From the NCBI GenBank assembly GCA_021234155.1, contig JAJEKV010000160.1:1095196-1159195 (forward strand): 64,000 bases of DNA, read 5' to 3'. A program made the position numbers and the translations under genes. Positions 3,358 through 58,489 of this stretch are shown here, in pieces (the first letter of the stretch is position 1; each line of letters opens with the position of its first letter). The DNA comes from Isoetes taiwanensis. Its lineage: Eukaryota > Streptophyta > Lycopodiopsida > Isoetales > Isoetaceae. The notes below the pieces were generated by a model. The model saw nothing but the letters and a program-made list of their open reading frames with translations. It made no database searches and had not been told where the DNA came from.

Positions 3358-3604
3358 TTTTCGACCGCGAGTCGAGAAAGGCCATAAAAGTCAAAGTACA
3401 ACCATTCTCATTAGAATATGGTTGCATCCAATCACACGGAAGCATACAAATGCTTTTGTCAACGAGACAACTAGCATGCCTTTCTCGACTCGCGAAGTCG
3501 AGAAAGTCCCAGAAACCCAATGTACAAGCATTATCATAATAGATTGTACAAGCATTTCATCAACACGACAAGCATGCCTTTCTCGACTCATGAGTCGAGA
3601 AAGG
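3358..3604. repeat. E1 palindromes, cluster 1
   Basis: Three copies of the word TCTCGACTCGCGAGTCGAGA or close variants (about 3358-3379, 3480-3503, 3581-3604), about 100 bp apart in non-coding sequence between the C-terminal exon and the FCP1 exon. The copies differ by single-base gains or losses at the centre (CGCGAAGTCG, CATGAGTCG). Confidence 0.85.
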
Positions 3605-3849
3605 CATCAAAACTCAATATACAAGTATATTCATTACAAAATGGTCAATACATGTGTTCACGTTCGATTACAATATTCACACAATTTGACTATCAAAGCG
3701 GGGGTCACTCTTCTTGTTCACCAAAGTATTTGTCGTCCATAGCTTTCATGATCGGCTTGCTCTCTGGATCGGGTTCCGTGAGGCTCGGATAGTTCGTAAG
3801 CACATCGGCGACAAGAATGGCAAAGAGGGATTCCGCCAAGACAGGACAG

Positions 3850-4602
3850 AGTCCGAAGGACAACCACCTATCGTCTCATATTCTTGGTCGATATGGCTTA
3901 GCAATGATTGTATTTTTGGCGTTATGATAGCACTTGTAGGAGAGTCGTCTATGATCAGCGTGTTGTGTTTGCCAAAGTCCCGAATTGCTCAAAAACACGT
4001 CCCGGCCTTTTCACCATTATAGGCTTCCCCTTTGTGATGGCTGGATCGAGGTCCTTCACATGCTCGACCCTTTCGTTTCCCCAAACGAACTTGAACTTCA
4101 AAACTGAAATGCCGAGAACACCAAGAACATTGACAATATTTTTCTTTGCCATACAAGACCATATGCCCACTTCGAATCCCCGTGCCAGGCACCAGTCAAT
4201 AATTTCCTTAGCTCTGGGCCTCGGATACACTATTTTATGCTCTGTTTTCACTGGGATCTGCGAGGTGTTAATCTCGGGGACGTCTTTGTCGTGGTATACT
4301 GCAGCTAATACTCCATTGACGTCAAATATTACAAGCTTGGTGGGACCAGCTGGATCCCAGTTGGAGTTTGGCTCTGACCATATTTCCGGTTCATCGGGAT
4401 CCAAATGCGGGATCATTAACTTTTCAGGTTCTTTCTGGCTGTGAGCAGTGTCTTGCTCTGGATTTTCATTCTCATTCTCGCGCGGCGTGAACCGTTGGAA
4501 TCCATTGACAATGATCCCGACTTCGTTGAGCTCGAATTCCCCGAAATGATGACATCCGCCGAAAGGAACGAAGTTTTTCGACTCGCGAGTCGAGAATGAC
4601 AA
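3850..4602 (-). CDS. C1 FCP1/HAD-phosphatase-like domain exon
   Basis: An acidic linker (ENENENPEQDTAHSQKEPEK) precedes a clear FCP1-homology domain: KLVIFDVNGVL at the position of the catalytic DxDGT/V loop, YPRPRAKEIIDWCLARGFEV and GIWSCMAKKNIV (the W-S motif of FCP1/HAD proteins), then VWGNERVEHVKDLDP. After a frame break near 3955 follows MIIDDSPTSAIITP, the conserved DDSP loop. Plant HAD proteins with F/LD(L/V)NG are known; the second Asp of DxD is Asn here, so phosphatase activity is doubtful. E3 carries the same domain (KILVFDLNGVL), so this is a family component and not a one-off capture. Confidence 0.75.
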
Positions 4603-4651
4603 GAAAAGGTATTGAAAGGAAACGAGTTTTCTCGACTCGCGAGTCGAGAAA
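4577..4651. repeat. E1 palindromes inside an intron, cluster 2
   Basis: Two near-perfect copies (about 4577-4596 and 4628-4651) lie in the intron that starts with GTGAGT at about 4676 (minus strand), between the methyltransferase-like and FCP1 exons. Confidence 0.85.
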
Positions 4652-4672
4652 CACCGTTAGAGCAAAGTAAAC

Positions 4673-5470
4673 TCACCTCAATCTCAGGTTTTCAATAATG
4701 TTTTCGGCAGCATTCTGGTCCAATCCTTCGACATCCTCGTCTCCGTCAGGTTTGTCTCCCTCGTCCTCGTCGTCTTTACTGCTTCCATTTGTCTTCCTCC
4801 CCTTGAAATGCTCATGAAGCAGATCCAAGTATGACTGAATGGTTTCAACCATGTCCTTATTTCCAACCACGGATATAGGTTTCATTCCAAACAAAGCATA
4901 GCCCCCTGAGAGAACAGGCCATTCATGTACCACTTTCGCATACAATTTGATCTTCCTCGACCAAAAGCTGGTTATGAAGTACTTGATAACTCTTGGCGGA
5001 TAGGAATTCTATGTATAGGACCGGTCGCACCATCCTTGGCTGACCTTGTCCATCGATGGAACATCCTCCATAAACCTGCCCCTTCCGGGGTTCCATACGC
5101 TCTTGAGAGATCATGAACTTGTCGAGATAATGATGCTCGCTAGACCACCACTTATCCGTGTCGACCGCCCGATCTTGAAATCAAAACCAAAACTATGTTG
5201 GCAAAGCTTGGTGCCTTCGGCAAGCCAAGTCTGCACTCATGATCAAGTTCAGATATGGAGTGCATGATCTTGTTGGTGAAGTTAATATCGGTGCCCATTG
5301 GGAGACAAAGTAGTTGTTTGATTGCCCGGCATGCAAAAGACAAGAAAACCGAAAGTATCCAGGTCGGTCATGTCCGGACACGCCTTGTACCACTGCTCTA
5401 TGTCGGCTTTGTCATAAAAAGGGTGGGGTCTTGATCATATTGATGGCAAATAGTGCCACGGGTCCAGTGC
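4673..5470 (-). CDS. C1 methyltransferase-like block, catalytic motifs replaced
   Basis: Aligned by eye to the E2 methylase and its E3 paralog. The motif-IV region (about 5460-5330) reads VALFAINMIKTPPF then ADIEQWYKACPDM...TFGFLVFCMPG, where E2 has TLVIADLPYGF. The motif-I region (exon 4945-4673) reads HEWPVLSGGYALFGMK then ISVVGNKDMVETIQSYLD, where E2 has DAFSGSGTTIACAL. The spacing and hydrophobic pattern fit a class-beta N6/N4 methyltransferase order (IV before I), but the DPPY and FxGxG residues are lost. The exon ends in an acidic stretch (KDDEDEGDKPDGDEDVE). Frame breaks are present. It could bind DNA or S-adenosylmethionine without catalysis, or be plain decay. Confidence 0.5.
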
Positions 5471-6364
5471 GAGTTCCTGCACCACCAAATCCCTTGTGTC
5501 CCAAAGTAACCAGAAATGGGGAGCTAATACGCGCTTTAAATGGGACCACCCGAATCCAAGCTTCCTTTTAATTGCCATAGCACGTTCAGGGAAAGGAAGG
5601 GTTTTGACGTTACGCTTCAAGCTTGGTGTTGATGTAGGGTTGACATAGGCGGTTCAATTCCTTCATGTCTTCCTCATCAAGGGCAGCCTTTTCCTTGTAA
5701 TAATCAAAATCATGGTATTCATTAGATGCAGCGTTGCGAGAACTCCGTGATGCCTTCTTCTAACGCATTTGCCGCTTTAGGACCGTGGCATAATCCTTTG
5801 CGTCCCCGCAATTTAGAACTCCTAGTCTTCCTCGCAGGATTGTTCCCTCCAAGATTTTGCCTTGTAGGTCAAGCGTTTCTTTGTCCGTGAGGCCCTCGTA
5901 TCCTCTTCTTCATGAACCGCTTGTCAAACAACTTGGGGTCGGGCCTGCTTGGAAATTCTCCATTCTTTGTCCTTCCGGCTTGCCTCTTGTCCATTGAGCC
6001 CATATTTCAGTCCATTTCTCCCGGGCACCGCCTCGATTGCTAAGAATGAGGTCGTATTGGTCCGAGAGAGACTCCTGCCTTTCCTTGGTGTTCTCTTCTT
6101 CTTCTCCTCTTCTTCCTCTCCCTCGTCATCTTCCTGTCCCTCCAGTGAACATATACGCATAGTTTCTCAAAGGTCTTCCACTTATCCAGGGAGCCCTGTT
6201 TCCTTTAGGACGCCGAGGACAACCCAATGCTTTGCTTTGTTGCCTAAGCGTGTATGATCTGGTCGGGGATAAGGGCTGCATTGGACAATGTACCAATGTC
6301 GAGCATGAAAGTATCTACAAACACCCGGGAATAAGCGGTAAAATGTAGCCCGGGTTTTCATTTC

Positions 6365-6732
6365 GCATGAGTCGAGAAAGTCCCTTGAATGTCTAATTTT
6401 CTTTTACTTCTCGGGTTTTCGACTCGCAGAGATCGAAAGCTCTGCATCCTTTGATTTTTTCATTACCACGCCTTTCGACTTCGGCAGTCGAGAAACCCGA
6501 TGATAATCGGCAAATGTTAGGATGGCGGGGTTTTCTCGACTCGCGAAGTCGAGAAAGTCCCATTCAATGTCTAATTTTCTTTCGCGGCTAAGGGTTTCTC
6601 GATTTCGCGAGTCGAGAAAGCTCCACATCCTTTGATTTTACCGTGTTTGGGGCTTTCGACTCGCGGTCGAGAAACCCGATGATAATCGGCAAATGTTAGG
6701 ATGGTAGGGCTTTCGACTTCGCGAGTCGAAAT
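6365..6732. repeat. E1 palindromes, cluster 3, within a ~170-bp tandem duplication
   Basis: Seven full or partial copies at about 6365, 6415, 6474, 6533, 6597, 6654 and 6710. The spacers repeat too: AGTCCC(AT)T(C/G)AATGTCTAATTTT follows the first and fourth copies and ACCCGATGATAATCGGCAAA follows the third and sixth, so the cluster grew by tandem duplication. CCGATGATAATCGG is itself nearly palindromic. Confidence 0.8.
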
Positions 6733-6749
6733 GGAAAGACCAGAGAGTT

Positions 6750-7240
6750 ATTTACCTTCGTGGTGGCACTTTCGCTGCTATTGTGTTCGCGATTGGCTAA
6801 TGCTGGCCCGGTTCGGTTGTCGGCGTCTCCGCCCGAAAGAACTCTGCACTCTCGCAAACGGCATATCTATCCTTGATCCTTTCGCGGCACCTCCTTCTCC
6901 GTCTCGCAATACTTGAGCCGCCCTAATGAATGCTGACCGTCTACAACCCGTAACGGATTCTCTTTTCCGCCAGATCTTCCTCGGACTTCCGGTTAACAAC
7001 TCACTGCCGATCGCTAAAAGGTATGACATCAGCAGGCATTGGATCTGCAGCGGGATGTCGCACCATCAGGTTCGAGAATCTCCGGCATGTGTCTTTGGAT
7101 TAAATTCCCCGTGGTTGAACAAGGCGGCATCTCCCGTGCAAACCCACCGTCTAATGTCAAAGCAGCAGCTTTGTGTGATATTCCCAACGGATAATACCGA
7201 GCTAGACGCTCCATTTTACGTGCCCCTCTCGAGAAATCCT
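6750..7240 (-). CDS. C1 ParB-like block
   Basis: The segment reading ARKMERLARYYPLGIS then ALTLDGGFAREMPP and IQRHMPEILEPDG aligns with E3 residues LKKYADKYPLGLS...IHVDRLFRSTKAMFVSRRF...EIVDSMIENPG, the N-terminal half of a ParB/Srx-like domain. The following frame (7029-6778) has VTGCRRSAFIRAAQVL where E2 has VLGGNHSFKARRQL. Weak on its own; supported by the identical order in E2, E3 and E4. Confidence 0.45.
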
Positions 7241-7319
7241 GATCTGATCATACGGATCGAGGTTTGGGGAGTCGACCATATCTTCGTCTCCTTAGTCATC
7301 GACTCCTCCGTGTGGTGTC

Positions 7320-8050
7320 ATCATCCCCATCTTTGTTTTTTGGTGGACTTTTTTTTGTATGAACCACAACATTCCCCAGCTGCAGAGTGTTGTAGACTCT
7401 TCAAACGATGAGAAGTGAAGCTCCCGTATTGAGCAGGTTTTTCCCCGACTCGGAAATCTCCATACCAAGCTCCCCGGATGTTAGGGTTCCGGCCTCCTTC
7501 ATCCCTTCGAGATCCTTCCACCCAAGGTTTCGACAATTTAAAGCGCCCGGCCTTTTTGGTGCCCTTAGCCTTGCTCATGGAAGAGTGAGAATAATTTGAA
7601 ACCGCCAATTTTTTTGCGCGATAGAACTTACTCTTCCGGCGGTCCTCGACATGTAGTGTTAAATGCTTGAATCTGGCGCAGGGCGGAGAGCACAACACCG
7701 ATTTTCTTGTACTTGTCTCCAGGAGCTCTTCTTGTCCCTTTGGTGTAGAAACAGATCTTTCTCCTTCCCACTTGTCGATACCTCGACATACCACCAAGAA
7801 TCTGCCGCTGTTTCAAGAAGCTCTGTCTCCAGTCCCTCGATGACGAAGAATGGAGTTCGGCCAGTGATCACCAGTGAGTCCGAGGTGAATGCTGCAAAGA
7901 AGAACGGATGGATCGGGTTAAGGTATTCCGACAAAAGAAAAAGCTCGAGCTCACTGGGGTGTTTGTCTTCTTCTTCTTCTTTGCGCTGGCGAAAGCATCC
8001 CTCCGGCGCCTCGCTTCTTGGGCCGGAGTCATTTCTATATGCCCTCTCAT
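7320..8050 (-). CDS. C1 N-terminal WYV block
   Basis: Reads MRGHIEMTPAQEARRRRDAF and a poly-lysine segment, then SLVITGRTPFFVIEG and DSWWYVEVSTSGKEKDLFLH. The WYVEV-STSGK-DL pattern matches E3 (SEWYVEIFKTSGKTDLIFMS), fixing homology between the elements. Two or three frames are used in succession, so indels interrupt it. No named domain recognised; the basic N-terminus suits a nuclear or DNA-binding protein. Confidence 0.5.
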
Positions 8051-8170
8051 CCTCTTGGACTGACTCAGAAATTAAGTTTCCTCAGCGTTGTGAGTTTTAG
8101 GACTGCATGTAAAAAGACGGGCGTGTTCTTTAATTTGAAGTTAAGGACATGCAATCATTTATGAAAAAAA

Positions 8171-8207
8171 GCGGGCTAAGGGTACAGCACGGTCGGCTTT
8201 AGCCCGC
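8171..8207. repeat. Short imperfect hairpin upstream of C1
   Basis: GCGGGCTAA near 8171 and TTAGCCCGC near 8199 form inverted arms around a loop of about 20 nt, in the AT-rich spacer upstream of the C1 start near 8050. It differs from the E1 palindrome word. Confidence 0.4.
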
Positions 8208-8929
8208 CCAAACACTATTTCGAAATTGAATCACATCAAGGGACTAAGTGAGTGGAGCGTAGTTTATCTTCCCTGCGGCATTGGGGAACTTCGAGGTCCG
8301 GAGGGGATCATCGGATCGTGGCGACTTCGAATGGCGCCGCGACGCTGTAAGCTGCTGGCGCTTTGCATATGTGTGTTTTTCCTGACCGCGCGTCCTATTG
8401 CAAGCAGTTGAATTGATCGATGAGCACGGAGCTAAGGTAGGAAGCGGAGAGGAGCTGCCAGACACCGGAACTCTACACTGCGGGCGCCATGGAAAGGGGA
8501 TACTGAGAATCGCAGGTGATACGAGTAATAGATCGCGAATACACTCTTGAAGCCAAACCGGCCGAAGAAGCAAAGACTCGGGTGAGGCTGCGGGATCCGT
8601 GATCAAATGGCCCCAAGGAATTACTGCGTGAAGAGGTGAGTTTGAGAGATGCCTATGTTATTTCGCTTGTAGAACATGCCGTATGTGTTTAAATAATGGA
8701 ACTGCCGATAAGCTCGGCGGATTGGTGTTTTCCTTGTCCGGCATTCGGCGAGAGATGATTTACTCTCTAGGTTGAGAGATGCTCGGCAAGGAAACATTGG
8801 ATCGGGGGTAAAGAACAGTTCCGTTTTAGGTCTGTTTTTCCATGGACTGTTTACTTGGAATGTTGTACATAGATCAGGCTAGGACTAAGGCCCAGGAGAT
8901 GCGGTTCAAATGCATCCTCTTGTAGTTAG

Positions 8930-9935
8930 TCGGAGGGGCCTCCACTGCATAGAACCACTCCTCTTCGCAATATTCGGGGAAGATGGTTGAAGGAGAGTGG
9001 CTCGCATGGGCTAGAGGCACTTGGGACTAAAAAAGGAGAATAGAAAGTCACGACTTGTAGAGAATGCAAGCCTTGGCTTCCCTCGTGGTTTCCCCGTGGT
9101 TAGTTGTAGAGGCCTCCCACCCGGTCAGCCCCTCCCCTTCGCACTATTCGACGAAGATGGTTCGAAGGAGAGTGACTCTGACTGGGTCGAGGCCACTGCT
9201 ACCAGACACAGGAGAATTGGCTGGCTAAGGGATTCTCGACTTGCGAGTCGAGAATGCTTGGCTTCCTGTCTACATTCTCGACTCGCAAGTCGAGAATGCC
9301 TTGGCCATCCAGAACTCCGGTTAGTACATGGAGTGCCGGTTGGGTAAGGCATTCCCGACTCGCTCAGCCGAGAATGCATACAGGCCTTCCTCGTGGAATG
9401 CATGCGTCGCAACCACTGGCCACGTGAGAATTGGGTTGTTAAGAGTTGGCTGCGGCAGACAAGAAAAAACACTTCCCTTCGCAATGTCCGGGAAGATAGA
9501 AGGAGAGTGTTTAAGATTTGTCGCAGCCGCCTCTAGAGTGCACTTTGAGCTCGCTGCGACTCACGAGTCGAAAGCAACAAGAACTCGCGGGTTAGTCACG
9601 CAGGCCTCCACCCAATCGAGCCCATCCTTCGGGCAATATTCCTGAAGATGGTTCAAGGAGACGGCCTTTGATTGCAGAGGCTGCCCACCGCAGGGGGAGA
9701 ATGGGTTGCTAGAGTTGGTGCAGATACCAAAACCACTTCCTTCGCAATGTCCGAATGAGGAAGATAAAAGGAGAGTGGTTGAGACCGCTCTAGCCAGTCA
9801 TGCGTTTTCACTCCACGAGTCGCAGAAAGCGGCCAGACACCTCGGTGGTTGTCGCCGAGCCTTCCACCTACCGAGCCAGTCCCCTCTTCATAACATTCGG
9901 CGAGCATGGTTCAAGGAGAGTGGCTCGCATCGGGT
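8930..9935. repeat. Diverged tandem repeats in the E1 spacer
   Basis: The phrase CTTCGCAATATTCGGGGAAG...GGTTCAAGGAGAGTGGCTCGCAT recurs about six times (near 8960, 9135, 9475, 9625, 9745 and 9890) with irregular spacing of roughly 120-340 bp, together with CCTCCAC(C)C and GAGGCACT. The units sit in the divergent spacer between C1 and T1, interleaved with palindrome copies. Confidence 0.65.
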
Positions 9936-10155
9936 GGAGAGGCACTCGCGATCGCACAAAGAGCCATTGGCGAGAGGTATCACATTTCACTCACGAGTCG
10001 GAGAAGGCTGCAAAGCAGGTTCTAAAGAATGTGAAGACATTGGGTAGCTGTGCAATCGATCGGAAGTCGAGAATCCTCAACTCGCCAACAGTCCAGAGTG
10101 TACACTCCCTCTTCTCGCCATGAAGTCGAGAAGTTCTCGACTCGCGAGTCGAAGA
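9228..10155. repeat. E1 palindromes, cluster 4 (divergent spacer)
   Basis: Clear copies are at about 9229-9255 (flanked ATTCTCGAC...GTCGAGAATGC), 9271-9298 and 10133-10155; degraded copies are at 9350-9375, 9555-9570, 9990-10002 and 10110-10130. The outer bases differ here (ATTCTCGA..TCGAGAAT) from clusters 1-3, so subfamilies exist within one element. Confidence 0.75.
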
Positions 10156-10607
10156 AGGAACAGATTTCCTTGTTGTTGGCAAGCTGAAGTATTCTCAACT
10201 CGCCACTCCCTACGCATGTCTCCCCGCATTGGATTTGCCGTGAGTTAGAAATGGAGATTCGTGAAGCAATTCCTATTACGAATTCTTCCGGGAGAAAGAC
10301 ATTCCTAGTTATTTTTCTGTTAATGCTCGCAATATCTTACTTCCTAACACCAGTCTCGATGATTTTCTCTCGGTTGCTTGCTACTATAACCACTATTCTC
10401 ACTTGTGCATGTACAATGTATTCAATTCAACCACAAGCAAGAAAAAAGATAACAAAAACAGTAAAACAATACAAAGATTATTAAGATTAATGAGAAAACA
10501 GAGAAAAGTGGAGAACGGTCGAGGAGAAAAGTGGAGAAACAAAGAAAAAATGAGATTAAAAAGGGTATGATATTACAAAACATACCGGAAGATTTGCTGG
10601 ATGAGGA

Positions 10608-10736
10608 GGAGGCTTCCACTTCGATTCCATGTGGGTATAGTCGTTGACAAAGCGTGAATAAGGATTTGTCGGGCCGTAAATTGTATCGTGGATTAATAAG
10701 AGCCTCTAACAAATGTAATATAAGAAAAAAATGCAC
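10608..10736 (-). CDS. Possible upstream exon of C1
   Basis: On the minus strand a T-rich tract ending in AG (TTTGTTAG) is followed by an open segment ALINPRYNLRPDKSLFTLCQ...YPHGIEVEASSSSSKSSG, then GTATGT, a good donor. The low-complexity serine end resembles a linker. Whether it joins C1 at 8050 or is its own gene cannot be told. Confidence 0.35.
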
Positions 10737-11162
10737 TAAAAGACTTACGTAAAACTAAAAAGCAGCACAAAAAAGGGCCTCACACTTTCTTCTCACCGCG
10801 TAACGCCAACAATGAACAATGAACGCTGGAGAATCCTATTTGGAAGGCCCCCGATCAGTCGACCAAGCTGCTGTCATAAGATGGCGCTGGAATCGCTTCG
10901 GCTTGATCGATCGCCTCGACGTAAAGCTGGCCCTAAGGGTTCGCGGGAGCTCAAGACTGATCCGAGAAAAATGGGGGAGGAAGAATGGTCGGGGGAGAGG
11001 AAGAGGGTGCAATTAATTACGCACCCTCAACCTCGTAAAAAGTGCAATAATATACTGCCACGTGTGGGCCATGCCCTCCATGGCGTGGCGGTCGCGGATT
11101 CTTGGCGGTAGCCGGGCGGTTTCAGCCTGAAGAGGCGCCACGTGGGCCATGCCAAGATATGA

Positions 11163-11410
11163 AAAGGGTTAGTTATATGTTTATATATGTTGTCTTATGT
11201 ATTTAATAAGGTTTCAATGGTTGAATAGTATCAATGGTATATATGGTTACAATGTTCACATATGGTTTAGAATGAGTGTGGTTGTATGCTTTAATATGGT
11301 TATATGATTTTAGTTAATATGGTTGTATGATTTAATATGGTTATATTTAATATGTTTGTATGGTTTTATATGGTTCATATGGTCATATTTGTGGTGTTTG
11401 GGGCTATATG
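11163..11410 (+). repeat. TATGGTT-rich simple repeat before T1
   Basis: Many irregular copies of TATATGGTT(A/T), just upstream of the first T1 coding segment. It ends in a T-rich acceptor-like sequence (CATTCAG) at about 11436. It may be leader or intron sequence of T1. Confidence 0.55.
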
Positions 11411-11448
11411 GTTTTAATGTGAGCTTTTTCATTCAGGGAGCATGTGAG

Positions 11449-14352
11449 ATGAGTAAAATGGAGCCAGGGAAGTCCAAAGGAGGCCATTGCCCTAGGCTCC
11501 AATGGAGGAGGATGGGTTGCCTTTTGTTGCACCCTTGCAACCAGATGGTATTTGCAGAGGGCATAATAACTGCAGTTGATCCATTTGATAGTGTGAATGA
11601 TGAGAGGCTGGGAGATGAACATCTTGGAGTTGGCATTGTGAAGCTTCTTATCGAAGTTGATACTATCATGTCCCAGGGAAGCTCTAGTGATTGCATTGTG
11701 TGCTCAGGGCTGCCGGAGTCCCAAGCTCGGGATTGAGATGGCCAATTAGATTTATTACACACAAGAATGGTGATACTCTAGAATGCCCCTTGAACTACAC
11801 ACCCCAAGGCCCACCCAAGGCCATGTGGAAGATTTGGTGGTCGATGAGCATCCTTTGATCACAAGGAAGAGACGCTATGTCTTTCATAAAAGGCAGCCAA
11901 AGGTGCCCAAGAGGCCTAGAAGTGACAAATATTTAGAAAGGATGGAAAGTATGGCACCAACCAAAGAAAACCTGGAGGCAATTAGGGGACAAGAGTGTTG
12001 CAACCTAGATTGCCAAGTGCATTACAATATGGATGACCTCGTGCGATATAAGGTCCCAATACATTGGACAGACTTCAAAAGATAGGATTAATTTCATTTA
12101 CTCCTTGTGTAGGAATTCAGCTATGATGAAAACACGGGGCGGCCGCTATATCAATTGAGGGGAATGAAGGTATGTATGAGAGCATTGAGATGGATTCTTG
12201 GGGTGAGCAAGTCTTCATTTTCTGAATCTTGGGGAGCAGGTTAGAAAAGGGCACACTTTGTTCCAACATGGTAATGCACTCACTTTGAAACCTAGAGCAA
12301 ATACTCTAAAGGCCATTGCGGTCTTCGAGAGCTTTGTGAGATACATGTCTCAATCTATGCCCCACAAGTCGAAGGTGAGCGAGCCTGCGGTGTGCGAGTG
12401 GTGCAAGTGTTGCCACAACACTATATCCAAAAGGAGTGCCTTAAGGAGGTCAACTCCATCCTAGAAACTACTTGGAGGTAGGCCTCTTTCTCAATCACAT
12501 TTCAGCAAGTTATGGAGCACTCACTTCTCGGGACGTGAGTGTCCTACAACACATGCCATTCTCAAAGTGCAACACTTGCATTCAACTCAAGGATACACTT
12601 GCATCAACTGCAATAGAGAAAGAAAGAATGGCAATTAGGGAGCAATTTGCAGATCACCAAAGAGACCAAATATCATGTAGGCAGTTGTATTGGCAAAGTG
12701 GAGAACATTTTCTCGAGATGCGGCCAGGACAAATTTTTGTGTATAATTCATGATAAGATGGACCAACACAAGACTTTCTTGCCAAAGCTAGATCCTTTAC
12801 CCAAGCGTTGTCAAAACGCTTTTCAGATGAAAGTAAGTCTGGCGGGTGTATTAACACATGGTCATGGAACTGGAACATATGGTCATTTTGTGCTTGATCT
12901 ATGGGAGATGATCCAAACTTCCATGTGAGCTCTATTTTCAAGTGCTTGAGAACACTAGAGAAAGGATCGATAGAAGGGAGGAGGTATTCCCCTTCAAGCA
13001 CCCATTTTGAGGCTTTGATGGATGATCAACCGCTTTGTTACCAAAGGCGGGGATAAAAAAGCTCACATCCAAGGTGCCTAGTGAATCAAGGAGGACTTGG
13101 GATGATTTCCCCTTACTAGAGAAATCTTGCACGAGGAGCTATGTTGTTCGGGTTGGACAAGCTGTTGGAAAGAAAACAAGAATAGATGGATGTTTGGGGC
13201 AATGTCATACTTGACAGCAGTGGGAGTATTCAAAGTTGTGAAAGTGGGATTCATGATGGTTGGGCATACGCATGATGATATTGATGGATTCTTTGGAACT
13301 TTCTCCACCAAGCTCAAGAGAGAAAACGTGACCACTCTCCCTGAACTAATGGATGTGTTTGAGAGCTGCATTGACCCCAACCCAATGGCTTTCTTGATGG
13401 ATGAGGTTGCAGATTGGAAATCATTTGTAGAAGGATACTTGCTAGATGGCAAGGACCAGTTATTGAGGACACACAAAGCCACTTCAATTCAAGTTTTGGG
13501 TTAGGGATGGAATACCAATCATGCAATATAAGTGGAGACCAGGTGACAAGTTGTGGATGCCTGTACAAGGTATCGAGTTGTGGCAAAGGGGTGCTGCTGG
13601 TGAAGTTCTCATTCCTAAAGGGCAGCCAAAACCACTACCTCCCTTCAAGACAGTCAAAGACTCTAGCCAACTGGTGAAGGGCATCAAGGATTACATAACG
13701 CACTGGGATGATGTTCGAAATGGAAAGCACACCTCCACTCTTAAGAAAAATCAAATGGACTCCCCTAATCAAATCTTGGGAGAAAGTTGTAACATGCTTA
13801 GAAACCCGAACGACCATGTGGGAGGGAGCTAAGAGGCGGGTTCTTGCCGAGTCAAGATGGGAGGGTTCTCAAGGTGCAAGCACGTCTCGGGAATGCTCAC
13901 TTGGGTCCCAAGTGGTTTGTGGGAAGTAAGGCCTCAAAGCCGAAGTGGTTTGATCTTCCTGAGTGGGATCCCTTTGAGGGACATCAAGGAAGGATACTTT
14001 GTGCTAGTAAGGCGATGATGAGGACTGTCCAATATGGTTAGGGGTGGCACTCTCGATGTGACCACCACTATGCCGATGGAGAGGAGTTAAGATCCCTGGA
14101 TTCCAAATTCAATATTGGGAGCCCATTGGGAGGCACAAGAAGGGCAACTTGAAGGAGCAATACACTGACTTTGGGAGAAGAAGTGGAGGCCAAATTATCT
14201 TTGACCCTCAAAGGAGGGAATTGGTGGAGTGTGTGGTATGGTCATATCCAAGTTCTCACATTGCAAAAGACAACACACACAAGATCCCAAGAAAGGAGAT
14301 GGACAAGGCCATGAGCAACCTCCATGCTATATCATTGTATGAGGGTGCATAA
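11449..14352 (+). pseudogene. T1: DUF7869-like transposase gene of E1, frame-broken
   Basis: Successive frames match T3 in order: VNDERLGDEHLGVGIVKLL (about 11600), GQECCNLDC (about 11990), HGNALTLKPRANT...MPHKSK (12264-12380), FSKCNTCIQLKDTL (12560), CIIHDKMDQHKTFLP (first acidic motif, about 12750), GVLTHGHGTGTYGHF (12850), KENKNRWMFGAMSYLTAVGVF (13165; the LDN just before it needs an indel) and FMMVGHTHDDIDGFFGTF (third motif, about 13260). A C-terminal region follows to 14352. The motif series has the look of an RNase-H-like transposase core; residue roles are inferred. At least five frame shifts make this copy unlikely to be translated whole. It reads toward the right TIR, divergent from C1. 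Confidence 0.7.
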
Positions 14353-14523
14353 TATTGAGAAGTTTGAAAACTTTCTCAACTAGTGGTTTGTAAAATTTAT
14401 GAGGAAAACAAGTAACCCAATTCTATGTGTGTCATGTGTAATTCTATTCAAGCAATCAATTCAGAAATTTCTTTTATGGTGTGTGAGTCCCATTTTCAGT
14501 CCGAGTCCCAAAATTCAAGATTT

Positions 14524-14548
14524 GTCCCACTTTAATTAAATACGACTT
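14524..14548 (-). repeat. E1 right terminal inverted repeat
   Basis: Exact inverted copy of 2435-2459, followed by AAAT (14549-14552), the second copy of the target duplication. Confidence 0.85.
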
Positions 14549-14552
14549 AAAT

Positions 14553-18235: not shown

Positions 18236-18256
18236 AAGTTGCGTATTAAACGGGAG
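18236..18256 (+). repeat. E2 left terminal inverted repeat
   Basis: AAGTTGCGTATTAAACGGGAG-type end. It aligns with the E1, E3 and E4 ends around ATTAAA-GGGA and with the inverted right end at 26672-26693. Confidence 0.5.
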
Positions 18257-18606
18257 CAAATCATTGAAACGAGAGCGAAAGGAATATTCCTTAAAGATTC
18301 CCCTTTTTTTTACAAAAGGGGGTAAAACGAGGTTAAAAAAAAAAAAAGATGCATGAAATTCTATTTTGACCCCCCCAAAAGTGACTAATTTTTTTGTGCA
18401 ACGAAAGAATTGACTGTTTGAAAGTGTCATTTTTCTTAGCAAATAGAATGTTCTTGAAGTATATTTTACGTGAGAAACCCTAATTTCAGAGGATAAAATA
18501 TTTAACAAAAAATTGAAGTTAGTCCGTAACTGAAACTGTAGTATTCTCAAAATTTGAAGATACAATCTTCATATTCACAACAAAATTTACAGTTTTTTTC
18601 TAAGAC

Positions 18607-40679: not shown

Positions 40680-41330
40680 ATGTAAATAACAGTAAATACT
40701 AACCCGAGAAACCTTAAGAAGTGATTCGAGAAGCCTTAAGAAGCCGAGAAAAAGCAATAGCAGCTAATTTGGAGAAAAAGCAATAGCAGCCGAGAAGCTT
40801 TAACACAAAAAACCAAAGTTATTCAAAGTCAGAAAAGCCAAAAAAACCAGAAAACCTTGTATAGAGCCTACAAACCTTGTATAGAACCTTGTATTGAGCC
40901 GAAAAAGCATATAGAAGCCGAAAAGCATATAGAAGCCGAGTTTAAAGCAGAAAAGCAGAAAAGCCGAGTAGAAACCTTTTAGAAATAAAAACCTTTGAGC
41001 CGAAAAACCCTAAAGCGTAAGATTGTAGAAGCGTAAAAAACTCGAAAAGCGCCAGATAAAAAACAGATAAAAACAGATTGTAGAAGCCGAAAGCGCAGAT
41101 AAAAACAGATAAAAAGCAGATAGAAGCCGAGTTCAAAGCAGATAGACGCCGAGAAGCCGAGATTGAAGCAGAAGCCAAGTTTGAAGCGTATAATAGAAGC
41201 CGAGAAGCGATTGAAGCAAATAGAAGCCGAGAAGAAATTGGAAGCGTAAAGTTTAGAAATTGGAAGCGCCTGGAATGCCTGGAATTGGAAGCGAAAAGTG
41301 AGAGAGAAAAGTTCGAAAACGAATGCTAAC
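40680..41330. repeat. GAAGCCGAGAAAAGC-type low-complexity repeats
   Basis: About 600 bp of irregular AGAAGCCGAGAA, AAAAGCAGA and CATATAGAAGCC repeats upstream of T3. The reading frames here are repeat artefacts. Confidence 0.75.
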
Positions 41331-41394
41331 TTGAAATAATAACTGCTTTCAAAATTTCGTACCGCGCCATTATAACTTCCGCGAAAATTTATTG

Positions 41395-41650
41395 CACGGG
41401 TTAATTGTTTTAAGGACCGCGATTTTATCCCTTGTAATAACAATGTTAAATTTATTATAAGGGTTATTATAGGATACCAAGGTTATCCCTTGTAATAATA
41501 AGGTTAAATTTATTATAAGGGTTATTATAGGATACCAAGGTTATCCCTTTAATGGTTAAGTTAACCTTTTAAGCTTAACCCTCATAAGGGTTATCCCTTT
41601 TACAAGGTTAAAATTTATTACAAAGGTTATTATAGGATACAAGTTATAAG
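41395..41650. repeat. Tandem repeat before T3
   Basis: Three copies of a unit of about 70-90 bp (AAGGGTTATTATAGGATACC, AAGGTTATCCCTTGTAATAA), which contains inverted TTATTA(C)AAGGG / CCCTTGTAATAA arms. Probably near the T3 promoter or within its 5' leader. Confidence 0.7.
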
Positions 41651-41814
41651 GCTAATAAGTAGAGGGTTTTATTTATATATAATGTTGAGGAAAATAACTT
41701 GGGGAATCCCATTATATAAATAGAATGATCAAATAGAATAAGACATATGAGGCTTTCATTTATGAACATGTTATTGAGAGGTTATTTGGATATGCTAACT
41801 TACTATATATTTTT

Positions 41815-44808: not shown

Positions 44809-45026
44809 TAAACAGTTACTATGTATCAATCACTTTTAATAAAAGTTGTGTACTACTTGAGTTTCATGATATATGATTTTGTAATTTGAAGTTAAGGTGT
44901 GAATTTATATTCCCGTGTGTGATTATATGTTAACGTCTATTCTAGTCTAAGGGCAACAAAGTTACTAAAAAAGTGAATTTAACAAAGTTACTAAAAAAGT
45001 GCAATATAAAATTTATCCCAAAATTA

Positions 45027-45058
45027 AGACATAATCCCAATTTAATTGAATGATGGTT
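45027..45058 (-). repeat. E3 right terminal inverted repeat
   Basis: Inverse of 28574-28605; followed by ACTT (45059-45062), the second target-duplication copy, and then the CT tract resumes. Confidence 0.88.
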
Positions 45059-49900: not shown

Positions 49901-50000
49901 GCACAAGGATTTCAGTAGTGTTAAAATCGAGTAAGGAAGACGAGAAAGCAATGCAAATGACCCGGGGACTCCCATTCAATGGTTACAAGGACAATAAAAT
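46930..50000 (-). pseudogene. T4: DUF7869-like transposase gene of E4, frame-broken
   Basis: Minus-strand segments in T3 order: FKEMRKRTLGVGVEEVL (about 49840), RTLCCKNRCCVGFSRNQVV (Cys motif, about 49120), KAWYLGLGISKSAYLKWKAQ (about 48960), CTQCLQSGILEEVNHE, YLCIIPRQNGSSQ (motif 1 out of frame, about 48410), HGHGNGSYGNFATDLW (about 48280), LFAVDNACRQNKNRYVFSYL (motif 2, about 47990) and GFMMP-THMMISMP, the frame-shifted GHTHDDID (about 47880). C-terminal VTWWEPI and NYANCWKKRWRP match the other copies. Heavily broken by single-base indels. Located next to the left TIR and pointing toward it. Confidence 0.65.
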
Positions 50001-50128
50001 TGGGCGGGTGCCCTTTTTTACGTATGAGGTGTTTAGATTCCCCTTGTATAAGGTTAGTATTGGATGCAGTGAGTCTCACAATGGGTAGAAAAGAAGGTTC
50101 TCACTGAAGAGGTTATATTCACAAGACA

Positions 50129-50520
50129 AATTGGGCCCGCCCAATTTGTTCGTGGTGGTGGAGGAGCCGTAAAGTAGGCACACACACCGGGCCCGCCCAA
50201 TTTAGCCGCCACCAAGAGAAAACACATTCGAGATACAAACTGGCCCACCCGGACAGCCACCTATCTGGTCATGTACGTAAGGGACAATATGGGCGACCGC
50301 CCAATTTGTCCCATTGTTGCAAATTGGGGCCGCCCAATTTGAACCGAATCAGCGCTTATATAAGGGTATTATTGATGCAAATGGGCCTCACAATGGGTAC
50401 AAAAGAAGGTTGTCGCTCGAAAGCAGACATATCCACAAGACAAATTGGGGCCCGCCCCTATTTGTTCGTGGTGGTTAAAGACCGTGAAGTAGGCAGAGAC
50501 TCCTACCGCCCAATTTAGTT
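50129..50520. repeat. E4 palindromes, cluster 1 (divergent spacer)
   Basis: At least six copies of CAAATTGGGC-GGC-GCCCAATTTG-type words (about 50129, 50198, 50290, 50317, 50441 and 50500), embedded in a roughly 350-bp direct duplication (TGGGCCTCACAATGGGTA.AAAAGAAGGTT at about 50070 and 50382). Confidence 0.85.
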
Positions 50521-52059: not shown

Positions 52060-52400
52060 AAATTGGGGCAAATTACCAATTTAGTCGGACCAAGTCTACC
52101 ATCCAAGGTAGTCGTGTTTCTCGATAGGCAAACCGGGGCCCGCCCACTTTGGTGTGAGGGATAAGTAAATTGGGCGGCTTCATTTTAGTATGCGTAGGAT
52201 TCTGGCAAAATTGGGCTGCTTCAATTTAGTATGCGCGAGGGATCGGCAAAATTGGGCGGGCTCAATTTGGCCCCCGTGGATACAATCGCCTCCCTCGCAC
52301 TCAAGGCTCACCATGAGTTGAGGCGAGGAAATTGGGGCGGCGCCCAATTTGGTGTGCGGGGATCGTGGCAAATTGGGGGGCCTCAATTTGCCTCCATCGC
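52060..52400. repeat. E4 palindromes, cluster 2 (first intron of C4)
   Basis: Seven copies or remnants (near 52060, 52130, 52158, 52205, 52248, 52329 and 52368), spaced about 40-70 bp, between the GTAAGG donor at 51754 and the next coding-like segment. The spacers also repeat (TGTG(C)GGGGATCGTGGCAAA). Confidence 0.8.
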
Positions 52401-53519
52401 ACAAAGCCTCTTCAGCCCCAAGTCTCCCAAGTACTAACACTACTTTCCGCTCGGCAGAATTAATATGGGCTAACAAAGCAGATCGCCGTTCCCTGCATCG
52501 ACCCAAATTTGCAGAGGCTATTGCAATAGAGAATGCAAGAACGTAAGAAGAGAAAGATCCGCTTGTCGGCATCCGTGTTGTGCCCCATGAAGTTTTGACG
52601 GCTGTCGATTTAATGGGTCCGTGCATAGAGATAGGGAATATTCATCCCGGGTCCCGCATAAAACCACCTCAAGGATCTTCGCTTTTCTTTGGCAAGATAG
52701 GGGCGTGAAAAATGAATTGGCGGTATCGCCATCGACATGGAGGTGTCGTCGCGAACAATGATGACTTCCTCATCGACGCTGAAGACACCGTAGAGATCGG
52801 ACTTTGTCCGCTATAAAGTTCCACTATCTAAGCACGAGCCATGTATGATGAACGCAAGTATAAAGGAAAGCCCACATTCTTGCGCCGTAAAGGATGGGCG
52901 CCGGACTCATATGAAAGTTTAGAGCCGGGCATCAAATCAAGAACCGATATTTTGATGGCTACTACGCCGCCGACAAAGGGATATTAGAGCACAAAACGTA
53001 ACAGGTCGAAAAGCATCGCTCACTGAGTATCGTGGCAAAACCAACCTAAAGTGTACGATACTAAGTGGCTTAAGTCTAGATACAAGAAAGGTGAGATAAA
53101 GACAAGCGCCGGGGGCCGCGAAATGGAGCCCGATACAGCTAGCCAAGAAGGCGAGGACACCGCTAAGGCTATTCACCGTAAAGTCGCCACTAAACTTATA
53201 TTCGTGGAATGAAGAGAACATCAAGGTCGCCCGATGCGAAAAGCGTAAGAGGACCAGCCGCCTCAAGAGGAACCCCTAAGCCGCATGGGAAAAGATTTAG
53301 GTGGTCCGTCGAAGAGGCGCAAGCGGACGGTTATCACAGAGCCCAAAAACTTCTGGAGAGGGAGTCCTTGTCTTCTTCTTCATCCAACAACCGGAGAGTA
53401 GCCGCAGATCGCGGAAGTTCACTCCATCCGGGTGGCGACGCCACCGTGAGAGCGTATATGAGTTGTCACAAAGCCATAGCAAGCATCAAGCTATGTGGAG
53501 AGAATCTACCCCTCCGGGG

Positions 53520-53900
53520 TGGGCTTCGGAGATTGAAGTCGATGTGTTCAAGATGCATAAAGCCCCCGCAAATATGACTTGTAGGGTCATAAGTCCAGAG
53601 CACTTGGACACTCTCTACTAATCGCTTATCAGCCATCGATGCACCCTCCCCGCGGCCGATGTCGCGGCCGCTCGATCCACGCATTGCATGCAGCAATAAA
53701 GTGGAAGAAGTCGAGGATCCGCAAAATGCGTAACCCGATTGTTAATGGCAACCATACGACCACGCTGCTCAACCGCTTGTCACACAAGCTTTGGCATGGC
53801 CTCCCGAAAGGAAGCACTTGGCGTAACCGGATATTCTTTTCTATGCCAAAAGGAAATGCCGAAGTCCCCGCGCAGAAATCTCACAAAGAATCGAAAGCAC
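53520..53900 (+). CDS. C4 ParB-like domain
   Basis: Reads GWASEIEVDVFKMHKAPANM, TCRVISPEHLDTL (counterpart of E3 IHVDRLFRSTKAMFVSRRFD), then after a frame change RKMRNPIVNGNHTTTLLNRL (counterpart of E2 HYVLGGNHSFKARRQL) and RIFFSMPKGNAEVPAQKSHK. The V-x-GNH motif is kept. Confidence 0.55.
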
Positions 53901-54099
53901 GCTCGTAAGCCGTGAGAATAATGACATAACAAAGAAGACTATACACCAGGAAGTATTTTTCAAGAAATTCAGCAGCCTTTCGCGAACCAATGGGCATTCT
54001 ACTGAAGCCACGTAAGGGCAAACGCGGCACTGGCCGGTGGAGCCGTGATTCTCGTAAGTGCACTACCACCATTACTAGTTCCTCGCTATCCATTAAGTT

Positions 54100-54275
54100 C
54101 AAATTGGGCCGCCCAATTTCAGCCTGTTGGCACTTTTTCAAATTGGGGCTTCAATTTCCTGAACGGCCGCAAATAGGGCGCCGCCCAATTTCAAAAACGT
54201 TTCGGGAAATTGGGCGCCAGCTTTAACCTCGAAAGTGTCTGATGATCCGAAATTAAGGCGCTCAATTTGCGCCGC
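54100..54275. repeat. E4 palindromes, cluster 3
   Basis: Five copies or remnants (about 54103-54121, 54140-54160, 54172-54192, 54205-54222, 54255-54270) between the ParB-like block and the next coding-like segment of C4. Single copies also occur near 55420, 56447, 56532, 57097, 57155, 58085, 58205 and 58235. Confidence 0.8.
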
Positions 54276-56775
54276 CATCGCAAGCAAATTAAGATGATGT
54301 GTATGCCTTTATCCGTGCCTTCTTTGTCATGCGTGATTGGAAAGTCAGAAGGCCCGAAAACCATTAAGAAGTCAACTATGCGTGATCACGACTACTTTGT
54401 ATATCTTGACGACGAAGTCGCGGAATATGTGCACCCGGGTTGCCCAGCTTATTCTACCTAAGACCGGTTGAAGGACGAGAAGGGAGAAAAAATTGAGGTG
54501 AAGGATAGGCTTAGACTTTTCACCAATAATACCCCGCCGCCCATTAAAGTCCATGCATCCTCTAGATCCGCAAAGGTCGCCAAGGAGATCAAGGATGGCA
54601 CCACATTCCCCTCAAGGGAAGCAAGGATTATACGGGAGACACACTATGAAAGTCGAGCCTGGGTGAGTCAAGAAGATTGGAACAATGGAGCGGGCCCTTG
54701 TCGATACATGAAGGAGTGTTAAGAAACTTCCTTTTCAAGACATGGCTGCCTTGAGGCAAGCTCACCCCATATTCACGGAGAGAATCTGATGCTTATGTTC
54801 GCAAGTAGCATCGCTGGATGGGCGTAAGGACGCAAAGAGATGGAGAAGGAAAGCTTTCCGAGTCCCTCTACAAAGAAAGTAGACCTAATATCTTCTAGGG
54901 CCGCTTGAGGAGGGTGGCAAACCTTTCAAGTGTTTCCACGCTAGTCCGGGAGGTTTGTGCGCGGACGGGTAAACACTTCGCCCGCTTCATTGGATGCTTA
55001 ATTTCAGATATAATGTAAGAAATGGCCAAAGGAAGATTATGAAAATTCCTTGACCAGCTAAGCACGATGACGGACCAGCAGCCTTTATCGGTAGCTATAT
55101 TTATTACCCCTGCATCTGCTTCAATGAGTGCCTATCCGCCATGAAGACAATAGACGGTGGCAGCCGTGGTTTGGGTTGGTTCCTACCAGACCCCCGCCGT
55201 AATCGCGACTACCTCTAGAGTTCGAGAGTTGCAATGTCTTGTCCCCGCTAATGTATGTTGCCGAGACGCAATGGCCACGCCATCAAGACAGAAATAAATA
55301 TTTGCTTCGCCAATTCACCATCCAAAGCAATATGCTAAGTTTCCCAAGCATTTACGAGAAAAACAGACATCGAAAAGAATTTGCCCGACACGTGTGCAGC
55401 AAAAGCAGTATGCATTTTAAATTGGGCTCGCCAATTTGCTTGTTGACTATCAATGTTTCTAACATTTGTTTTTCCGGCACCTTATTGGTCAGACGACCTT
55501 GGTGCATAAGGGTGCAAAGCAGTGGGGAGGAGTACCGGTGCGTAATCGCTTGAAAGTAGGACGGCACCTATCTAGTACGGTTGATGCCGGAAGGTTGCAA
55601 TCGTTTCGACTTCTTTTCCGGGTGGTGCTTTTAGCCGAGCGGCAAGCAGCGAGGGCTATAAAACATTGTCTTTGAGACAGACGCAGAAGCTGGAAATTAA
55701 GCTTGTACGTGATATTCGAGCAACTCGATGTCATGTTAGACGAGAAAAATCAAGAGCTCTGCACTACGTAAGATAAAAGAGGGAAAGAAGAAGGCCTCTA
55801 CTTCCAAAACCCGCCCGCCTTCCCCGCCTCCCCGAGACACCTTTGTCCGCTCTCGCCTACAACTATAAACGGCGCAATCAGCCCGGAGACAGACAAGAGC
55901 GCGATTCAAGTACAAAGCCAAAAGGGGCACGCCCTAGGCTCTCCGGATTTGGAACTATTTAGGAGAAGAAAAACAACATCAACGACCGGCAGTGGACTCG
56001 GACCGGGTGAATACTGTGACATGATTGAGGCTTAACCTCAAAGTTCGAGGAAGAGGTTGCTAGGGAGCCCGACTGCCGCTGTCATGGAAACACGTGAAGG
56101 GGACAATCAGATGGAGAGGATGTGGTCCCCAACACGATGAGCCAAGATGTAGAGGAAGAGGTGGCGAACACGTAAGACAATCAAGGTGCACATGATGAGA
56201 ATGAGGAACTGGGGCCCAAGATTTTATGCAAAGAATGGAATTGATCAAAGAGGCAAAGACAACAACCTCAGCCCAAAGATGGAGAACCCAGGGGATCATT
56301 CGGAAGATGTGCCTCCGCATCTAATGAGCAACTTATGAGTTGAAAATACGGAAATATGTTAATAACAATTGTTCATACTTCTTTTTCAGAAATGATAACG
56401 CTTGCACTCATTTCCTTGTCTTAAATTTCTAGTTTATTTTGCTAACCAAATTGGGGCCTAACTAATTTGGCTAACCCTTACAAACTATAGCCTTTTATTA
56501 AATTTATTTGATTCTCGCTTATTCTCCGCAAGAAATTGGGCTGGGCGCCAACCCCATCGCGCAGTAGTAAGCCATCAAACATGAAGTGAAGTGGAGCCGC
56601 AGTAAAAAAGTGGAGATCAAAGAGCGCACCTCGTGAATTACTCGTGCACGCTACATTATATAATATTGACTATGCTTATTACATCCTTACAACATTATTA
56701 TATCCTTGTCAAGATTAACATATCCGAAAGTGTACAAAGAGTCACTCGTCGTCAACGCCGCCAAGGCGATGCCAT

Positions 56776-57144
56776 TCACTCAAAGATCCGGCCGATCAGA
56801 AGCCAATACTGTGTGGACCTCAACACGAAAGTGAGCTTCCCGCAATTACCGCAGTCCATCCGCTTTGACCGGAGCCATGGATCAAGACTAACACCACCAT
56901 ATAGCACCGGGCAAATATCGTTGTAACTCAAGTAGCACTTGAAGGATCGGATGTTCTCCTGACGATCCGCAAGGAAGCCATGAGAGATGAATGCAAAGGA
57001 GCTGCTTTTATAGGCGGAGAAATTATTGATGTCAATTATTGGCGCATATACTAGCGCAATGTAACCGTGATAAGGTACACCTATAGTAGCCACGCCGAAA
57101 TTGGGGCCGCCCAATTTCGCGCGATCATAATGACATATGAGCAT
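56776..57144 (-). CDS. Unrecognised minus-strand frame, E4
   Basis: INNFSAYKSSSFAFISHGFL, ADRQENIRSFKCYLSYNDIC and KRMDCGNCGKLTFVLRSTQY look like exon sequence (CxxC present). Opposite in direction to C4. It may form one gene with 58490-58849. Confidence 0.3.
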   Translation of the reverse strand: MLICHYDRAKLGGPNFGVATIGVPYHGYIALVYAPIIDINNFSAYKSSSFAFISHGFLADRQENIRSFKCYLSYNDICPVLYGGVSLDPWLRSKRMDCGNCGKLTFVLRSTQYWLLIGRIFE

Positions 57145-57557
57145 TCAAGGGCAAAGTGGGCGGGGCTTCAATTTCACTGACATGTTGGACAAGTTGCACA
57201 TATAGAAGACAAGTTGTACTAATACTTTATCTCATAGATGATTACAACCGATTACAACAAGATGACAAGCTGCTCATTTAGGGGACTCTTCCGAAGTCAT
57301 TTTCACCGTGCACCCCAAACATCTTCTATCATGTACATTTGATGCTCTCTATTCCATATCGATGGATGATAACGCCAAGGGATCGTGATAATGGCGAGGA
57401 TTTAGTTTTAATCGCGGGTCATCCGGGCCTTCCATGGGTATCTCGCCAGCGCAATCGCTTGAAGTTTTCGCGGATTCATCTTGCGCTTGATGGAATCACG
57501 CTCAGACCGTGATCGAGACCACATGGCTAGATCTAAGGCCAAATTTGATGGTCAAAA

Positions 57558-57806
57558 TTGTTTGAGATATATTTATACCCACAATCATTATTGAAGGTAT
57601 TGTACGCGAAAGATTATTGGATGTACACCGATATACAACCAATAATGCCGCTACAAAGAGTCATCAATAATTCCTTGGCTATAAATATAGCCGATTCGAC
57701 GCCACAAAGACATTCCGCCGCCATGTCTCGCCATCTTCACAGCCCCATGTTGACACCCCTTACTTGCCTTATGACCTATGACGCATCTTTATGCTCGCGA
57801 AGTTGA
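57558..57806 (+). CDS. Unrecognised short frame, E4
   Basis: 82 codons, FEIYLYPQSLLKVLYAKDYW, DIQPIMPLQRVINNSLAINI. No family recognised; could be chance. Confidence 0.2.
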   Translation: MFEIYLYPQSLLKVLYAKDYWMYTDIQPIMPLQRVINNSLAINIADSTPQRHSAAMSRHLHSPMLTPLTCLMTYDASLCSRS

Positions 57807-58489
57807 AAGGGATCTCTCGATCCCCGGCCGTATGGTATAGCTACCGGTCGAAAAGAAAGACTCCCCGCGAAAGTATCATGTTACTATCCATATTTGTGGG
57901 TTCCGAGCGAGGCTTTTTTGAGATTAATAGAATCACCAATAATTACAATCTATGACTCATGTATTTCATAACTTTATATGATATGATGATGTAACCTGTT
58001 GTGCATGATTCTCGTTGTTATGTTTCAGCTTGTTATCTTCGGGTTCTCGATCTACGCTTTCTCGCTTTCCTTTTGCTCAAGAAGAAGGAAAGTGGGCTGG
58101 CTTCAATTTTCCCCGAAAGTGGAAGCCTTCATGAAACTACCTTCGTGCCATCTCAAGGCAAAAGTCGGGCGTCGCCAGCTCGGAGGAGACTATTCCCGAA
58201 AGAAAATGGGCGGTTTCAATTTCCTCCCGAAGGAAAGTGGGCGGGCCCAATTTCCCTCGTGAGGCCTCCATGAAATAAGATATTACGCTCGTAAATTGCA
58301 CGCCATTGGGATGTTCTCAATGTAGACAAAAACATTCTATTCACATAGGAATGGAGTACATGGATGGATTACGAGATAATAATATCAACTAAACAACATG
58401 CGCCGAAAAGCATAGGTTGAAACGTAATGACAATAGATAATAATAGATAATATTAAACATGGACGCTTCAACCAATATCCGCCCAACCG

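Follow-up and report, generated by a model that had tools for sequence, protein, structure and literature searches.

Element-specific palindromic words in four paralogous transposons of Isoetes taiwanensis as candidate recognition sites of the elements' own accessory proteins

A 64,000-nucleotide stretch of Isoetes taiwanensis DNA (GenBank assembly GCA_021234155.1, contig JAJEKV010000160.1, forward-strand positions 1,095,196 to 1,159,195; hereafter the window) carries four paralogous transposons, E1 to E4, and raises the question of why each of them repeats a palindromic word of its own in its non-coding DNA. We read the window as nuclear eukaryotic DNA from its spliced genes, and the assembly to which it belongs comprises 1.658 Gb in 1,110 contigs. 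Each transposon has a transposase-like gene (T) and a divergent accessory gene (C), an arrangement that is clear for E1, E2, and E3. An original prediction, made from the letters alone, had interpreted the words as binding sites that evolve with their protein. The present analysis, which is itself one of sequence, supported this interpretation: we consider it probable (roughly 0.7) that in each element the words are recognized by the C protein which that element encodes, a self-recognition working much as that of VANC in the unrelated VANDAL elements of Arabidopsis.

The window contained 42 palindromes at a score of at least 8 and 19 at a score of at least 10, compared with 4–12 and 0–2 in twelve dinucleotide shuffles. 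Sixteen of the 19 best palindromes were words (E1 4, E2 10, E4 2, and E3 0). When strict palindromes were counted, E1, E2, E3, and E4 contained 8, 13, 2, and 8 copies of their own word and none of the others' words, and this diagonal word-by-element table confirmed that each word is private to its element. The workable half-sites were TTCTCGACTC (E1), GTGTATTC (E2), AATCGCGCC (E3), and AATTGGGC (E4). With at most one mismatch, 29 E1 half-sites were found in the window, 24 of them in the C side of E1 (its C arm), against a shuffle mean of 3.2. The corresponding numbers were 49, with 31 in the element's own C arm, against 11.8 for E2 (TGTGTATTC) and 56, with 37 in its own C arm, against 29.4 for E4 (AAATTGGGC). 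The E3 signal was carried by exact words, as AATCGCGC occurred 10 times where 0.24 were expected. The 15–25 copies per element that had been predicted were borne out for half-sites (20–37) and not for full palindromes. Among the literal words of the prediction, those of E1 and E2 were found exactly (one copy for E1, three for E2a, and one for E2b); those of E3 and E4 seem to have been printed slightly wrong, because neither had an exact copy. The words were located as follows:

3480..3603: E1 words downstream of C (3482-3504, 3580-3601)
4575..4651: E1 words in an intron (4575-4596, 4629-4650)
6369..6620: E1 words in an intron (6533-6555, 6596-6618, plus half-sites)
9232..10156: E1 words in the C–T spacer (9233, 9275, 9352, 10134)
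22190..22503: E2 words in the T–C spacer (7 palindromes, in steps of about 40 bp)
24506..24787: E2 words (7 palindromes, in steps of about 40 bp) in the C intron at 24443-24867
30153..30171: E3 word in an intron
32356..32508: E3 words in an intron
33743..33848: E3 words in the intron that precedes the N-terminal exon
35308..35973: E3 words upstream of C (35308, 35373, 35846, 35901, 35955)
49998..50518: E4 words in the T–C spacer
52167..54190: E4 words inside the C arm (52167-52388, 54102-54190)
55420..58252: E4 words inside and beyond the C arm (55420, 57099, 58235)

The predicted placement in introns and spacers of the C arm was correct in its coordinates, and further sites lay in the C–T spacer and on the downstream side of C. 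Word palindromes were absent from the T arms of the window; single half-sites do occur in T genes (48901, 20714), and the predicted absence from T genes therefore holds for palindromes alone. Exons, from which the words had also been said to be missing, were nearly free of them: across ten C arms of the E3 lineage and its sister lineage (71.9 kb, 33% marked as coding by homology), one of 87 half-sites of the lineage's own type was coding. By our own arithmetic, the chance of this result is about 1e-14 if the sites are independent, which they are not, because arrays duplicate. Strict words were likewise absent from the stretches 14550-18238, 26690-28573, 45059-46776, and 59245-64000 outside the elements (1-2433 not counted), whose extents are given below:

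2435..14548: E1 element, with perfect 25-bp terminal inverted repeats (TIRs) at 2435-2459 and 14524-14548 and AAAT on both flanks as a 4-bp target-site duplication
18239..26689: E2 element, ends approximate, terminal repeat short and imperfect, without a clear duplication
28574..45058: E3 element, with TIRs about 32 bp long and ACTT flanking it on either side; the boundary is identical in the relative L036
46777..59244: E4 element, ends approximate, repeat imperfect, duplication not seen

The E1 boundary was also marked by its relatives L049 and L050, whose alignments start at 2434 and 2435. All four terminal repeats (2435-2459, 28574-28606, 18239-18256, and 46777-46795) contain the core ATTAAA/ATTAAT, which a G-rich run follows in most of them, and this common core is a possible sign of common descent. 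Sola1 transposons make 4-bp target-site duplications, and E1 (AAAT) and E3 (ACTT) resemble them in this respect; E2 and E4 showed none. A second near-perfect stem (AACGGGAGTG-6-CACTCCCGTT, 26654-26679), which is not a word, was observed at the C-side end of E2 and is present in six of six close E2 relatives (L052-L057).

A genome-wide word count, which had been suggested as a check, was run for E1 and E4. The 20-base E1 word, with at most two mismatches allowed, occurred at 10,606 sites in the whole 1.658-Gb assembly, compared with 3 for a reversed control; the E1 pattern is its own complement, and the counts on both strands are therefore equal. The E4 pattern AATTGGGC-N0-4-GCCCAATT occurred at 3,959 sites, compared with 0 for its control. 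The 104.7 kb surrounding 30 T-gene loci, all E3-like, held one word site altogether. This count and the empty stretches outside the elements indicated that the words are not equally frequent in unrelated sequence.

To relate word to lineage, we used loci that were not selected by word. A T query gave 10,815 first-look candidates and an E2 C-exon query gave 2,493, and 150 of each were scored. The T-homology sample consisted of 12 stretches upstream of T matches, taken from the 150 listed with the word disregarded, and the C-exon sample of 14 loci, namely the 6 best and 8 of lower identity (70–90% overall). The prediction depended on a link between word identity and element lineage, and such a link was found in all 23 C-bearing loci (9 by T homology, 14 by C exon). 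A C gene was present in 9 of the 12 T-homology loci, and in all nine the word type matched the C lineage; the word was lacking from the other three stretches (L040, L043, and L046), which gave no C match. CGCGCC palindromes occurred in six of six members of the E3 C lineage (the window, L035, L036, L037, L041, and L042) and CACGCC palindromes in four of four members of a sister C lineage (L038, L039, L044, and L045), the sister word differing from the E3 word in one or two bases (CACGCC in place of CGCGCC). None of the T-homology loci contained both as palindromes. The half-sites followed the same division, with 49 of the CGCGCC type and 0 of the CACGCC type in the E3-lineage loci, including the window, and 38 of the CACGCC type and 3 of the CGCGCC type in the sister loci. 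In all 14 E2 C-exon loci, 3–7 E2 palindromes lay next to the exon, and the other four words were absent. E2 palindromes also occur in L036, beyond its E3 end, in a piece resembling the E2 spacer between T and C; the E3 relative abuts this piece exactly (L036 2750-2830), which looks like one element inserted into another.

Loci that were selected by word test only the match of their surroundings. All seven E1-word loci that were fetched were E1 relatives, four by a subterminal block (L001-L004) and three by the C arm (L049-L051). The block resembled the C-side end of E1 over about 100–170 bases from window position 2503 at 73–81% identity, with an inverted end in L001-L003, and the E1 C arm aligned at 91% in L049 and 84% in L050, both from the element end, and over 8.1-9.3 kb in L051. 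The overlapping loci L047 and L048 were 83% identical to the E4 C arm.

The form of the words bears on what recognizes them. Across the loci sampled, one gap length between the half-sites dominated, in 30 of 37 sites for E1, 81 of 103 for E2, 26 of 28 for E3, and 14 of 16 for the sister lineage, and by our count the E4 gap was 4 in 39 of the first 50 genome-wide sites listed. At the eight core positions, counted at gap-2 sites with at most three mismatches, we found 19, 25, and 30 one-arm changes compared with 1, 0, and 2 matched two-arm changes (groups of 44, 38, and 38). A mostly fixed gap together with independent changes in the arms favours two protein contacts on DNA over a pairing stem. 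The idea that the words serve as hairpins in transcripts of C, for splicing or RNA stability, or else as cruciforms could draw on near-perfect palindromes, many of them intronic, and on a few matched two-arm changes in the flank (5 at E2 position -1, where 2.3 were expected). Nevertheless, we disfavour it and regard it as very improbable, given the arm-independent core changes, a gap that does not behave like a loop, and the many sites upstream or downstream of C. At the position immediately flanking the core, the two arms do tend to co-change, T being found mostly in L052-L057 and A mostly in L058-L065; this looks like homogenization of arrays, because the two E2 arrays of the window also differ in this base (A in one, mostly T in the other). 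Such array-by-array variation of the flanking bases, and E2 arrays that step by about 41 bp and resemble tandem repeats, are what one would find if the words were by-products, either tandem-duplicated arrays or host-factor sites, with C playing no role and the lineage link reflecting common descent. We consider this improbable, since separate clusters within an element have an identical core, the core is kept in E2 copies whose C exon is just 70% identical, the words are nearly absent from exons, and the same places are filled by four unrelated cores in four paralogs. Helical phasing of the sites was considered and dropped, as the other families disagree with the E2 step.

Whether C or T is the more plausible binder was assessed from the genes themselves. 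The T genes are listed below:

11774..13829, plus strand: E1 T region, DUF7869 (PF25273, 3.5e-29), frames broken
19839..21023, minus strand: E2 T region, without a DUF7869 match of its own, tied to the remaining T genes through similarity at 19839-19946
42275..44127, plus strand: E3 T region, DUF7869-like at 1.7e-4 (below the cut-off, one piece); relatives carry PF25273
47367..49029, minus strand: E4 T region, DUF7869 (2.3e-10)

In Pfam, the T pieces of E1 and E4 matched DUF7869 above the cut-off and that of E3 below it. An E3 T composite query found 39 relatives, all 39 with PF25273, and those named by organism were from amphioxus and the liverwort Riccia. The T pieces gave either DUF7869 or nothing above the Pfam cut-off, and a Mutator-type transposase was not matched. 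The C genes recognized were as follows:

3721..8081, minus strand: E1 C region, frames broken, a VVDGQH ParB-like motif near 6940 and a degenerate methyltransferase-like region
23500..26100, plus strand: E2 C region, frames broken, a ParB-like motif YVLGGNHSFKARR at about 23800, DLPYGF at about 25300, and FSGSGTT at about 25930
29625..33718, minus strand: E3 C region, frames broken, an N-terminal exon with IIDGQR, a methyltransferase-like region without DPPY, and a NIF/FCP1-like end

A ParB-like region in C was suggested by DGQH or GNH motifs in E1, E2, E3, and their relatives, and by sub-threshold matches to a PHROG ParB-like partition protein (E 0.011 for L044 and 0.017 for E2; none for L042); DndB was matched in Pfam at 0.0083, below the cut-off. 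The E2 C composite, which bridges frameshifts, matched the N6/N4 methyltransferase family PF01555 at 3.1e-8, above the Pfam cut-off; the unbridged single DLPYGF exons of two E2 relatives gave no PF01555 match. DLPYGF followed by FSGSGTT is the motif order of the beta class of methyltransferases, and D(L/I)PYGF was kept in all 14 E2 C-exon loci. No protein homolog of the E2 C composite was found at E 0.001 among 5,688 candidates, and solved structures gave only weak matches to its methyltransferase part, the best being MboIIA (E 0.04). In the C of E3 and its sister lineage, the DPPY-like motif is replaced (VLDSRG) in a region whose likeness to methyltransferases was judged by eye, and no methyltransferase profile matched either. 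The end of E1 C (about 3900-4380) is NIF/FCP1-like (PF03031, 5.8e-6, on a piece bridging a frameshift), with matches just below the cut-off in the unbridged E1 piece (9.8e-4) and in the relative L049 (4e-4). The usual motif of the NIF/FCP1 domain is DxD; at this position, the ends of E1 C (3900-4380) and E3 C (29625-30100) have DVN or DLN and are therefore perhaps non-catalytic.

C evolves much faster than T. The T core of L044 (169 residues) was 84% identical to that of E3 while its C exon was 42% identical, and throughout the loci with a changed word, T cores were 80–84% and C about 40–45% identical to those of E3; the intact C exons of L042 and L044 shared 45% identity across 388 residues. 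These rates bear on the view that the words are sites of the transposase T, or of a T–C complex, serving transposition. TnpA of En/Spm is transposon-encoded and binds repeated sites at both ends of its own element in the service of transposition; the present elements resemble that system in having a transposon-encoded protein and, putatively, repeated sites for it in the same element. The words are element-specific, T is lineage-specific too, and some words lie near the C-side terminus (L001-L004), all of which would suit a T protein. Moreover, T and C lineages are congruent in the sample, a point that weighs against our reading because lineage correlation alone cannot tell C from T as the binder. 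Unlike TnpA sites, however, the words are one-sided and intronic, lying in C introns and flanks, with the T arms of the window and the surroundings of E3-like T genes as empty as described above. This position in and around C and the faster change of C favour C as the binder, and binding by T appears unlikely. A closer alternative, which overlaps with the self-recognition reading in that C binds in both, is that the words are the substrate of a C methyltransferase (self-methylation) and do not serve anti-silencing. It would fit the PF01555 composite and the intact DPPY-like motif of E2 C; we hold it possible but doubtful, since E3 and sister C lack DPPY and yet keep private words, so that methylation cannot be the common function.

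Several further observations weigh against recognition of the words by C. Strict E3 palindromes number just 2 in the window, and E3 half-sites with at most two mismatches show no excess (53 in the window, 20 of them in the E3 C arm, against 47.9 in shuffles). Gaps of 0–2 occur in E2 sub-lineages, and in the E4 sites of the window and L047 the gaps range over 0–4, with 5 at 2 and 5 at 4 among 13. The E1 and E4 copies outside the window were reached via the word only. The T and C frames are broken in the window copies, although many copies elsewhere are open. Finally, no DNA-binding domain was recognized with confidence in C: Pfam ParB families gave no match, and an AlphaFold model of one intact N-terminal C exon, from a five-sequence alignment, reached a pLDDT of 35, with no usable fold.

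If the self-recognition reading is right, a C dimer would bind the word clusters through two half-sites at a mostly fixed spacing. Bound clusters, situated in introns of the element, in its C–T spacer, and at the terminus on the C side, would mark DNA of the same lineage only, and the element would likely be kept active by a resulting local change in chromatin or DNA modification. For E2 and its relatives, this effect may be exerted through the methyltransferase domain, whose catalytic motif is retained. In E3 and its sister lineage, where the methyltransferase-like region has lost the motif, it may come from binding alone, as is presumed for VANC in VANDAL elements. Recognition would thus be the shared function and methylation one possible output, because E3-type C proteins without the catalytic motif keep their words. 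New specificities might arise as word arrays are duplicated and homogenized while C outpaces T.

The excerpts of PMC5735166 and PMC10398659 consulted describe short element-specific motifs in the introns, intergenic DNA, and terminal non-coding DNA of Arabidopsis VANDAL elements, which differ between related families; according to those of PMC5735166, the motifs form tandem arrays and VANC diverges faster than the transposase. E1 to E4 are alike in that an element-specific motif is enriched in their non-coding DNA, and, so far as those excerpts go, in tandem arrays and in an accessory protein that changes faster than T. The systems differ in that the VANDAL motifs, as printed there, are short, non-palindromic, and arrayed in the same orientation, whereas the present words are palindromic. 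VANC has DUF1985/DUF287 and VANDALs are Mutator-like; here T has DUF7869 and C has methyltransferase-like and phosphatase-like domains, with no match to DUF1985 or DUF287 in Pfam scans of C pieces (E4 C not scanned as a gene). It is about an even question, in our view, whether these elements represent a second, independently evolved self-recognition in eukaryotic transposons, in which fast-evolving proteins of bacterial-type ParB-like and DNA-methyltransferase parts form many mutually blind protein–word pairs within a single genome and mark thousands of copies, with recognition as the core function, since lineages without catalysis retain the word. The bacterial ParB target parS is a palindrome. 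A ParB-like fold fused to an N6_N4 methyltransferase is known and frequent in phages, as the relevant part of PMC12704722 reports; here, in contrast to bacteria and phages, the host element is a eukaryotic transposon.

The large Ectocarpus transposon Sola1-1_Ec32 has, according to the parts of PMC12477816 consulted, a ParB-like plus N4/N6 methyltransferase gene on the strand opposite the transposase, whose product was proposed to bind and modify its own element's sequence. In the main text of that source, 'palindrom' and 'binding site' are absent and the target site is unnamed. The likeness, within what those parts describe, lies in a C gene divergent from T (clear in E1, E2, and E3) and in the N6/N4 methyltransferase of the E2 C composite. 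By the same comparison, the present elements differ in having candidate lineage-specific targets and in that the catalytic motif is missing from some C lineages, which have a NIF/FCP1-like end. The literature searched contained no report that transposon proteins of this type have private palindromic targets. Transposon ParB-methyltransferase proteins are already known, and the present contribution is a candidate target that changes with lineage. With candidate targets for several lineages and a visible word change between sisters, the self-binding proposed for the alga becomes directly testable. If the reading is true, eukaryotic transposons have gained self-targeted accessory proteins on more than one occasion, and the natural protein–word pairs would constitute a family of orthogonal DNA readers, some perhaps with methyltransferase activity.

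Other repeats were observed around the elements. Related repeat units at 16319-18133, 45625-46705, and 61850-62180 hold arrays of tRNA-Gln genes with CTG and TTG anticodons, together with tRNA-like pieces; they separate the T ends of adjacent elements and recur at the window's right edge. A tandem array of 41 copies of 19 bp (14886-15661) is situated between the T-side end of E1 and the tRNA array. Long, degenerate CT-rich (or GA-rich) simple repeats are present at or near the element borders (26703-28570, 44950-45430, and 59260-61800).

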